From Pelosinus sp. UFO1 (GTDB taxonomy: Bacteria > Bacillota > Negativicutes > DSM-13327): 64,000 nucleotides of DNA. The translations under genes and the position numbers were made by a program. Positions 32,454 to 56,326 of the stretch are shown here, piece by piece (positions within the stretch are counted from its first letter, which is position 1; each line of letters begins with the position of its first letter). Where the stretch lies: positions 4,642,001 to 4,706,000 of the forward strand of contig NZ_CP008852.1 of NCBI RefSeq assembly GCF_000725345.1, in the 5' to 3' direction. Below the pieces are notes generated by a model. It did not search any database. It was not told where the DNA came from and worked only from the letters and a program-made list of their open reading frames with translations.

Positions 32454-32551
32454 ATAAGAAAAGACTTGGCTTGTGCCAAGTCCTCGGACGCAGGCAGAAG
32501 CCTTAGTCGTTCTTACTTGGAATCAAGAAAGTGTTATACTTTCTGATTCCG
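32454..32551. repeat. 98-bp structured interspersed repeat, copy 1
   Basis: Matches copy 2 at 96 of 98 positions. It contains three hairpins: GACTTGGC/GCCAAGTC (32463-32482), a small GAC-GGC/GCC-GTC stem (32487-32508), and GGAATC-AGAAAG/CTTTCT-GATTCC (32519-32550). Its right edge abuts the terminator of the CYTH-CHAD gene. On the minus strand the first hairpin is followed by TTTTCTTAT and looks like a terminator itself. Confidence 0.85.
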
Positions 32552-32560
32552 TAAAAAATT

Positions 32561-32597
32561 AAAAGGGAGGAATTTCATAAAAAATTCTCTCCCTTTT
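32561..32597 (-). terminator. Terminator of the CYTH-CHAD gene
   Basis: AAAAGGGAG-GAATTT (32561-32575) pairs with AAATTC-CTCCCTTTT (32582-32597). On the minus strand it is followed by TTTTAATTTTTT, 33 bp after the stop codon. Confidence 0.8.
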
Positions 32598-32629
32598 CAA
32601 CAACCCTTTCAAATGGCTATTTTTTTCTG

Positions 32630-34159
32630 TTATTTCCACTTTTGTACAGTACGATTAAATTTCAGCCAATATTTATCTAGTTTTTTCCTTAGCGTTAAGG
32701 TTTCGTGGCATTGCCAACCAATCAACATGCCTGCCTCTAATGGTAAACCTTTACTCGATTTCCCTCGTAATAGTTCCCTAAGTAATCCTTCCGTACTTTT
32801 CGCATCACTAATGATTCCTAAAGTGTCTTGGAGTTTTTCTAATTTTAATAATAAACGAGGGGTTCCTTTCAAATCAGGCTGCAATACTTCCATTGTGTAT
32901 CTTATCTTCTTAACCCAAAGCCTAATTTTGTGGACATTTTCAGCATCCGTCCACTCCACTGATTTTTCCTGCTTTCCCACTATTCTGAGCCAGCTTAATA
33001 AACCAGTAATCACATAATCATCAACTGTACAGTCATGGGGAATAATATGCTGACAATCTTCATCAAGAAGTTCCGCCCACAACCCTAACAAAGTAGACGT
33101 TGTTAAGCCAGAATTATACTCTGCATAGATCTTTTCGGCTTCCTGGCTACGCTTTTCTGTTAAAACTTCTCCTAGCCATACCTTACCTTCCATAGATACC
33201 ATTTGATAACCAAGGAACTGTTGCCAACTACAGTAGGCTACATCAAGTTCTCGTAAAGCCTCTACTTTCCTCCCAAACTTTCGCAATTCGTCTTGATAGC
33301 GGGAATACTCCTTGATCACAGCTAAAGGTTCAGAGAATTCCAATACAGACCGCAAGCGACGCAGACAGATACGTAGCTCATGAACCAGCCCCGGTTGCTC
33401 TTTGTGTTCTAAAAAAGACCGTTGCGCTAATAATACTTGAGCTATCAGATCCACCAATACAACTCTTAATACCTCACTTACAGGTCTACTTTTATCCACC
33501 TGCGGTAACTCATTTCTCCTTGGTATCTCGGTAGACAACCCTGCTAATAAAAGTCCACGATAATATTTACTATCAGGCTCTGGCAGTAAAGGATATTCTT
33601 TAGCTAAGGCAGCCCCTAACAAAAATAAATCCCTAGGTTGTCCACTCTTAAGCTCCAATTCTACTTCTAAAATTGGTGCTGTCTTCTCTCCCGCTATAAT
33701 TTCACCTTTATCGGCGGCCACTTCAATTGTAGCACCATCATGCATAATAACCTCTAAGATTTGCCTTTCAAAACGAGTGATTAAAATAGGCTCTAGTATT
33801 TGGTCGCCTATTACTTTTTGTAACCGAGAACCAACCTCCGTATTTAAAAACACTGTTATATCCGGTTCTTCCCTGTCTACAGCAATATTCCATTCCTGGC
33901 GGGCATGCAGCCCTCCTTTAGATGATCCACCACTCTTTACCGTAGCCACCCAAACCTCACCCTCACGACGAACACGATAAGCTAGTTTCGCGTTTTGTAA
34001 TGAATGATTCGCTGTGTCAAAGTAACGGGCTTCCAATTGCTCAGTCTTCGCCGTTCCTAGAACGGCAAGGTTCGTGAGTGCTTCTGCTGTCATAATCCTT
34101 TCCCACACACTCTCATCTGTACACCGAAGTTTCAATTCTGTTTCTGTATGCTTAGACAA
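32630..34159 (-). CDS. CYTH-CHAD domain protein
   Basis: A 509-aa fusion. The N-terminal CYTH (triphosphate tunnel) domain, about 1-200, begins with the ExExK-type signature TETELKLR and has alternating basic and acidic strand residues typical of tunnel-fold phosphohydrolases (inorganic triphosphatase or thiamine-triphosphatase relatives). A CHAD helical domain (about 220-505) has conserved histidines and arginines (VHELRICLRRLRSVLEF and VHKIRLWVKKIRYTMEVL) thought to bind polyphosphate. Likely role: polyphosphate or triphosphate metabolism. The start is TTG at 34159 with GGTGAT upstream. It is monocistronic and is flanked on both sides by copies of the 98-bp repeat. Confidence 0.9.
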   Translation of the reverse strand: MSKHTETELKLRCTDESVWERIMTAEALTNLAVLGTAKTEQLEARYFDTANHSLQNAKLAYRVRREGEVWVATVKSGGSSKGGLHARQEWNIAVDREEPDITVFLNTEVGSRLQKVIGDQILEPILITRFERQILEVIMHDGATIEVAADKGEIIAGEKTAPILEVELELKSGQPRDLFLLGAALAKEYPLLPEPDSKYYRGLLLAGLSTEIPRRNELPQVDKSRPVSEVLRVVLVDLIAQVLLAQRSFLEHKEQPGLVHELRICLRRLRSVLEFSEPLAVIKEYSRYQDELRKFGRKVEALRELDVAYCSWQQFLGYQMVSMEGKVWLGEVLTEKRSQEAEKIYAEYNSGLTTSTLLGLWAELLDEDCQHIIPHDCTVDDYVITGLLSWLRIVGKQEKSVEWTDAENVHKIRLWVKKIRYTMEVLQPDLKGTPRLLLKLEKLQDTLGIISDAKSTEGLLRELLRGKSSKGLPLEAGMLIGWQCHETLTLRKKLDKYWLKFNRTVQKWK

Positions 34160-34260
34160 TAGGTATCACCATCCTATTAACATTATGCCATTTTACTTAC
34201 TCTTTCAGCGTATATCATACATTAATCATTGTCAATGGAAACCACAAATGGAAGATTGCT

Positions 34261-34358
34261 ATAAGAAAAGACTTGGCTTGTGCCAAGTCCTTGGACGCAG
34301 GCGGAAGCCTTAGTCGTTCTTACTTGGAATCAAGAAAGTGTTATACTTTCTGATTCCG
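34261..34358. repeat. 98-bp structured interspersed repeat, copy 2
   Basis: Same orientation as copy 1, with two substitutions: C/T between hairpins 1 and 2, and A/G in the loop of hairpin 2 (AGAA to GGAA). No stem is disturbed. Its right edge abuts the prfC terminator. With copy 1 it brackets the CYTH-CHAD gene as direct repeats 1.8 kb apart. Confidence 0.85.
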
Positions 34359-34364
34359 CAAGAC

Positions 34365-34408
34365 AAAAACGCCTCAAAATCGGTATATTACCGACTTTGA
34401 GGCATTTT
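34365..34408. terminator. Terminator of prfC
   Basis: AAAAACGCCTCAAA (34365-34378) pairs with TTTGAGGC followed by T6, around an inner TCGGTA/TACCGA stem. It begins at the prfC stop codon. Runs on both sides make it bidirectional. Confidence 0.85.
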
Positions 34409-38164: not shown

Positions 38165-38466
38165 AGTTTACAACTTTACACTTTTTTTAAAAGTTATGAT
38201 GGAGAAATAAAGAAATACCCCTATGTTTCAGAGAGCCGGAAAAGGTGTGAACCGGTAACATATGTATTTTGTAAGTCACTCCTGAACTGCAAAGCTGAAA
38301 ATAGTAAGTAAGCTGCGCCGGAAACAGTTCCATTGGAACGCAACCGTTATCTTGCTAGGGTTGATAGACCTGATGAGATGCATACACCTTCGTGTGGATG
38401 CAATAAGGGTGGTACCGCGAGATAACCTCTTGCCCCTTTTGAGGGAGCAGTGGGTTTATTTTTTTT
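38165..38466 (+). ncRNA. T-box leader, probably tRNA-Leu responsive
   Basis: The T-box AGGGTGGTACCGCG is at 38406-38419 in the antiterminator, and a competing terminator (about 38426-38466) ends in a T8 run. Stem I shows AGAGAGCCGG, the distal GGTGTGAACCGG, and a proximal helix TTTCAG/CTGAAA. In the specifier loop GAA is followed by CTG (38287-38289), which reads leucine; a one-base shift would give TGC (Cys). Leucine fits control of ilvD. Uncharged tRNA would allow readthrough into ilvD and the transporter. Confidence 0.9.
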
Positions 38467-53469: not shown

Positions 53470-53530
53470 ATAAGAAAAGACTTGGTTGCACCAAGTCCTT
53501 ATAAGCAGGTAGAGACCTTATTCACTTTAC
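53470..53530. repeat. Diverged copy 3 of the structured repeat
   Basis: Hairpins 1 and 2 of the 98-bp repeat are present, hairpin 3 is missing. Hairpin 1 is GACTTGG/CCAAGTC. In hairpin 2 the closing pairs change together (GGC/GCC becomes GGT/ACC and AC/GT becomes AA/TT), while the GCA/TTA internal loop is unchanged. Same orientation as the other copies. Confidence 0.75.
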
Positions 53531-53566
53531 ACGCAAAATCATGAAGAATTACGATAATTAGAAATT

Positions 53567-56171: not shown

Positions 56172-56256
56172 TAAAAAAAACCTCCACTTTTCTTTATCTT
56201 TTGAAAATTAATGATCACAAATACAGGGTTCTAAGATTTTTAATACATTATAAGAA

Positions 56257-56276
56257 TATACTTTCTGATTCCGCAA
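56257..56276. repeat. 20-bp remnant of the structured repeat
   Basis: TATACTTTCTGATTCCGCAA is identical to 34342-34361 at the right end of copy 2. It abuts the terminator of the CheX gene, just as copies 1 and 2 abut terminators. The rest of the element is absent. Confidence 0.6.
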
Positions 56277-56277
56277 A

Positions 56278-56326
56278 AAAAGGCTAAGGATTCCTCCCAC
56301 TGTAGAGAAGCCGTCCTTAAGCCTTT
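56278..56326 (-). terminator. Terminator of the CheX operon
   Basis: AAAGGCT-AAGGA (56278 onward) pairs with TCCTTAAGCCTTT (56314-56326), and on the minus strand a T7 run follows. It lies about 80 bp after the stop of the minus-strand CheX gene. Confidence 0.8.

Follow-up and report, generated by a model that had tools for sequence, protein, structure and literature searches.

Here we describe a 97-nt non-autonomous element that is almost certainly mobile and directed to Rho-independent terminators, and that in our estimate (a probability of roughly 0.6) transposes in single-stranded form, much as the IS200/IS605 (HUH/Y1) elements do. Membership of IS200/IS605 is not claimed, because no transposase is encoded by the element or linked to it. 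It was found in a stretch of 64,000 nucleotides from Pelosinus sp. UFO1, hereafter the window, in which a preliminary description had seen a mobile or RNA-based element that targets the ends of terminators. Mobility and terminator targeting are upheld by 119 copies, by the statistics of their flanks and by empty sites in related genomes, while the RNA-based part of that proposal is not supported, since no reverse transcriptase was detected in the genome and the orientation follows the replication strand more than transcription.

The unit reads C-GGAATC...TTTTCTTA, in the order C, hairpin 1, AA, GTAAGAA, hairpin 2, hairpin 3 and TTTTCTTA, and all its copies in the window lie on the minus strand. 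Copy 1 (32455..32551) is complete and has the commonest sequence of the genome, being one of 16 identical 97-nt copies. It comprises hairpin 1 at its 5' end (unit nt 2-33; 32519..32550), the proposed guide GTAAGAA (unit nt 36-42; 32510..32516), hairpin 2 (unit nt 44-65; 32487..32508), the terminator-like hairpin 3 (unit nt 69-89; 32463..32483) and, 3' of the latter, the tail TTTTCTTA (32455-32462); the hairpins are supported by fold and covariation, the guide by its sequence and by covariation in its closing helix. Its target (32552..32597) is a Rho-independent terminator hairpin (32561-32597) with a T-run ending in a purine. Copy 2 (34262..34358), likewise complete, follows a terminator hairpin (34371-34403) and then TTTTTGTCTTG (target 34359..34404), and the orthologous place in the same-genus genome G006 (L157) is also filled. 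As had been described, the two copies are nearly identical, differing only at unit positions 56 and 67 of 97; both positions are unpaired (hairpin-2 loop and spacer), so that no stem is disturbed. Both copies adopt the three-hairpin fold (folding energy z about -7 against shuffles), and the unit has neither a reading frame nor terminal inverted repeats. The third copy (53470..53554; 34.7 bits, E 6e-5) is genuine though diverged, its 3' domain and tail being recognisable. The remnant (56251..56273) is genuine too: internally deleted, with both ends kept (CGGAATCAGAAAGTATA...TTCTTA), it matches at 16 of 16 bases a pattern for which 0.01 matches were expected, and it lies directly 3' of the T-run of its target, a terminator hairpin plus T-run (56274..56326). 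Minus-strand terminators do directly adjoin copies 1 and 2 and the remnant. The placement upstream of minus-strand genes, noted for each copy in the window, is coincidental and local: genome-wide, many copies sit between convergent genes or antisense to both neighbours. The window also carries a T-box leader (38187-38440, plus strand; Rfam RF00230, 99.6 bits).

A covariance model built from 22 copies (R1) gave 142 matches at E<=1 in the 5.1-Mb genome of the window, 119 of them at 80 bits or more, so that the genome-wide count proposed earlier did turn up further copies. Among the 97 copies that are exactly 97 nt long, a second subfamily of 12 identical copies accompanies the 16 of the commonest sequence. 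Abundance varies widely within the genus, with at least 67 copies in G006, 27 in G003 and two or three each in G001, G002, G004, G005 and G007; two genomes of the same family outside the genus, G008 and G009, hold at least 52 and 64, respectively. With a broader model (R2), run on 151 genomes of the class, the element was traceable in 32, and it is amplified in several other Sporomusaceae-like genomes and in family f24; the named matches are Sporomusa acidovorans, Sporomusaceae MAGs and one Pelosinus MAG. Rfam returned chance matches only, both at the gathering cut-off and at E<=10, viral contigs gave no match to the core pattern, and a limited literature search found no publication describing the element. 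A decayed copy in similar flanks in the window genome (G000, 3657080) and in G004 (L118, L072) suggests older insertions common to several species, and a diverged copy at one shared place in several Pelosinus genomes (L068, L070, L071; L367) lies directly behind a gene for a small cysteine-rich, SCIFF-like peptide, where it has possibly been co-opted as a terminator.

The limits of the unit were set by comparison with relatives, in whose genomes we searched for joined flanks and then aligned them. This gave 27 orthologous sites lacking the element in at least one relative. At the clear empty sites the bases after the T-run are AT (10-11 sites), GT (2), AC (2) or AA (1), whereas the sequence with the element in place is T-run-R-C-GGAATC...TTTTCTTA-T/A. 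For each of the two GT targets, the occupied counterpart has G before the C. The purine and the base that follows CTTA are therefore target-derived, and the C is part of the element. Two other delimitations, a unit starting at GG with AC as part of the target and a right-hand AT supplied by the target, are each contradicted by some empty sites, and the GT targets fix the unit as C...TTA. Target duplications, which the preliminary description had proposed to look for, are absent from the clear empty sites, as is any loss of target. Not all empty sites are clean (58543, 1183576, 238583 and others), and these may be footprints of loss, as may the pair of AC sites and a number of sites in which TAT is added or the T-run is shorter. 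The element has been active since the split from the nearest species. Some copies lie directly behind the TTTTCTTA end of another, and in tandem pairs, as in G000 (1511237-1511432, L017) and G006 (C3:61128-61323, L156), the junction is exactly TTCTTA-CGGAATC (within TTCTTACGGAATC), which would be compatible with a single-strand circle as intermediate; the pair in G006 occupies a site that holds one copy in G000. Another repeat family, about 160 nt long (GGTATCAGAATTTATAAG...GCGTTTTTCTTAT; L093, L100, L129, L130, L056, L055), with ends similar to those of the 97-nt element and with AACCACAAAGACACA inverted repeats inside, follows the CTTAT end of several 97-nt copies, or a terminator.

Insertion occurs 3' of a hairpin and T-run, at T(4-8)-R/T (the slash marks the insertion point). 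In the element-sense flank ahead of the purine, all 119 copies have T at -2, and T occupies positions -1 to -6 in at least 86%; the purine at the insertion point is A in 89 of the 119 and G in 27, with C next. A strong hairpin, defined as one of -8 kcal/mol or better ending no more than 11 nt from the insertion, is present at 101 of the 119 insertions (85%); the corresponding figures are 15-18% for the remaining T-runs of those loci (lengths 5, 6 or 7 and more) and 10% after shuffling of the flanks. Nearly all copies without such a hairpin still have the T-run. In other genera a terminator flank accompanies 28 of 40 copies, compared with 28 of 80 nearby control positions. The earlier question of whether the insertion sites are terminators is thus answered in the affirmative; neither of the two outcomes that would have told against the initial proposal occurred, as the genome contains additional copies and the association with terminators persists when more sites are examined.

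The orientation of the copies is linked to replication. With the origin (about 4.75 Mb) and terminus (about 2.2 Mb) set solely by where GC skew changes sign in the loci around the copies, 96 of the 119 copies have their sense strand on the lagging-strand template. Where neighbouring genes, called by ORF length, are convergent, the lagging-strand template is preferred 27:7 (p=0.0008); between tandem genes there are 35 sense and 8 antisense copies if the genes are leading and 2 and 6, respectively, beside lagging genes (p=0.003). Unoccupied hairpin-T4-R sites of these loci lie on the lagging-template strand in only 53-60% of cases (p<=7e-6 versus the copies), and the bias exceeds what vacant targets or gene direction explain, although in part it may reflect terminators that are stronger behind leading-strand genes. 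Replication strand thus accounts for the orientation better than transcription does, as would be expected if the intermediate were single-stranded DNA. The lagging-strand template is also the target of IS608 and ISDra2 (PMC6006769), and a preference of this kind is not predicted by a transcription-driven mechanism.

The element has a conserved architecture (hairpin 1, the 7-nt GTAAGAA, hairpin 2, hairpin 3 and a T-rich tail). In an alignment of 34 sequences (32 distinct) across genera, which was fitted to the structure and so favours it, pairing holds in 92% of cells and two-sided changes occur in 19 of 37 pairs; neither any of 500 shuffles nor any slid structure reaches the observed covariation. 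Changes on both sides affect 10-13 of the 13 pairs of hairpin 1, and the closing helix of the guide region covaries at 2-3 of its 6 pairs. GTAAGAA can base-pair with TTTTTAC at the left junction and with TTCTTAT at the right end, and it matches the tandem or circle junction TTCTTAC without a mismatch. In three copies (L069, L074, L079) the first guide base is A, matching a left base T in place of the usual G and C, and in L064/L236 GTAAGGG stands opposite CTTTAC. From these complementarities we propose that GTAAGAA is a guide pairing with both ends; hairpin 3, for its part, could serve as a second terminator.

On the reading that we prefer, transposition as single-stranded DNA, an enzyme would recognise the folded strand of the element, and the single guide would pair both with the 5' target (TTTTTR-C) and with the 3' end of the element (TTCTTA-T). 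Cleavage after the purine, or after the A, would release the element as a single-strand circle, with a junction (TTCTTA-C) that the guide complements in full, and insertion would apparently take place as single-stranded DNA during replication. A terminator hairpin with its T-run would mimic the element's own 3' end (hairpin plus TTTTCTTA) and would be chosen for that reason; the same mimicry would explain insertions behind other copies.

The best support for such a reading comes from the IS200 group itself. IS200-group TnpA genes are present in 60 of the 151 genomes of the class, and 31 of 32 distinct left flanks of IS200-group insertions in Negativicutes (L164-L166, L304-L353) have a strong hairpin no more than 15 nt away and a T-rich end, as in the junction at which TTTTTATT is followed by GTATAAAG. 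Terminators are thus a common landing place of single-strand transposition in this class; in the literature searched we found no description of IS200 insertion behind Rho-independent terminators. The 97-nt element further resembles IS200/IS605 in (i) lacking terminal inverted repeats and target duplications, (ii) inserting 3' of a fixed target flank, (iii) its subterminal hairpins and lagging-strand orientation, and perhaps (iv) an internal putative guide that could pair with both proposed cleavage sites. It departs from them in its length of 97 nt, in carrying no gene and no Y1 TnpA, and in a host without IS200 TnpA; unlike IS608, it has one guide, placed mid-element 3' of hairpin 1.

What enzyme might act on it? 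We surveyed RVT_1, IS110, IS200 TnpA, Y2/IS91 and Y1 enzymes. In the window genome no reverse transcriptase (PF00078), IS110 transposase, Y2/IS91 transposase or IS200 TnpA was detected, and among these enzyme classes no transposase is encoded by or linked to the element. The sole Y1 gene encodes a 253-aa RAYT-like protein, with an NCBIfam REP_Tyr_transpos score slightly below the cut-off and an orthologue 96% identical in G006; its length and C-terminal extension led us to assign it, provisionally, to group 1 (subclass 2.1). Group-1 RAYTs are reported to lack a REP-like partner (PMC6006769). The 3.3-kb locus around the gene contains no copy of the element, and the gene is flanked by a different repeat, GTGGGGACGG, which resembles the repeats that the same paper reports beside subclass 2.1 members. 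As with REP/REPIN-RAYT systems, the element is short, high-copy, structured and intergenic, its host genome encodes one Y1 RAYT only, and its GTAAG beside hairpins recalls the GTAG tag; unlike REPs, which are palindromes of 20-40 nt with a 5' GTAG or GGAG tag, it is about three times longer, with three hairpins and GTAAG, and it is inserted into terminators and not beside the RAYT gene. Since the element does not flank the RAYT, and since the copy-rich G008 (at least 52 copies) gave no match to a Y1 search of its 89% complete assembly, the RAYT is a candidate and not a conclusion. We would offer only as a speculation, with the odds well against it, that the element is the missing substrate of group-1 RAYTs: such a Y1 transposase, domesticated and kept as a single copy, would mobilise the three-hairpin element, with its one shared guide, as single-stranded DNA and land it at terminators that mimic its 3' end.

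It is unlikely, we think, that the element instead arose by deletion, in the manner of a PATE or MITE, from an IS200-group element since lost from the window genome. Its target type equals that of the IS200-group elements of the class, and IS200 TnpA is still present in G009 and G004; yet the sequenced IS200 ends (GTATAAAG.../...TTTATT and others) have no sequence in common with it, and its abundance does not track IS200 presence, G000, G006 and G008 all being without IS200. Like PATEs it is non-autonomous, with hairpin ends and IS200/IS605-like mobility, but PATEs share their ends with a resident IS605-type element and no such partner was found here. Like MITEs, BOX, RUP and ERIC it is small, non-coding, mobile and intergenic, while unlike MITEs it has no terminal inverted repeats or target duplication and has a precise structural target. 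Equally improbable in our judgement is movement by a site-specific recombinase that uses the hairpin, T-run and purine as attachment site, whether its substrate is double-stranded DNA or, as for integron integrases, folded DNA. Exchange at a short shared sequence (TTA/C with TTTTR/T) would explain the duplication-free empty sites; a double-strand mechanism, however, does not predict the lagging-strand preference, and the analogous IS200 elements use Y1 enzymes. We considered a recombinase hidden in the larger flanks of G017 and G035 and rejected it: judged by their translations, the adjacent genes encode an ABC-F protein and an EamA-like transporter.

Group IIC introns insert behind Rho-independent terminators. 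They share with the element this target, the absence of target duplication and pairing with a T-rich 5' flank, and the element is itself structured, with a terminator-like hairpin at its end, which lends some appeal to a retroelement or mobile RNA in which a transcript reading into the element would be copied back behind terminators. We nevertheless regard this as very unlikely: the element is far shorter than such introns, at 97 nt, and has no reverse transcriptase, ribozyme core or domain V, PF00078 was not detected in a genome that holds recent identical copies, and orientation tracks the replication strand and not transcription alone. That the element is immobile today, an ancestral structured 3'-UTR element or backup terminator under selection, is hardly credible: copies do lie where a second terminator would do no harm or be of use, and several Pelosinus genomes (L068, L070, L071) retain a diverged one at the same position, but 27 sites differ between relatives, the empty sites refute this as a full explanation, and subfamilies of 16 and 12 identical copies stand against same-genus genomes with only 2-3 copies. 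Individual copies may have been co-opted by the host.

Because its target is a structure, a hairpin and a T-run, a high-copy element can reach the ends of genes without breaking them. Together with the IS200 data, the element points to terminator hairpins on the lagging strand as a resource for single-strand transposition in these bacteria, and it offers a small, testable system for insertion guided by folded DNA. It is also a source of terminator-proximal structured RNA, which annotation pipelines could mistake for sRNAs, and a possible partner for orphan RAYT transposases.
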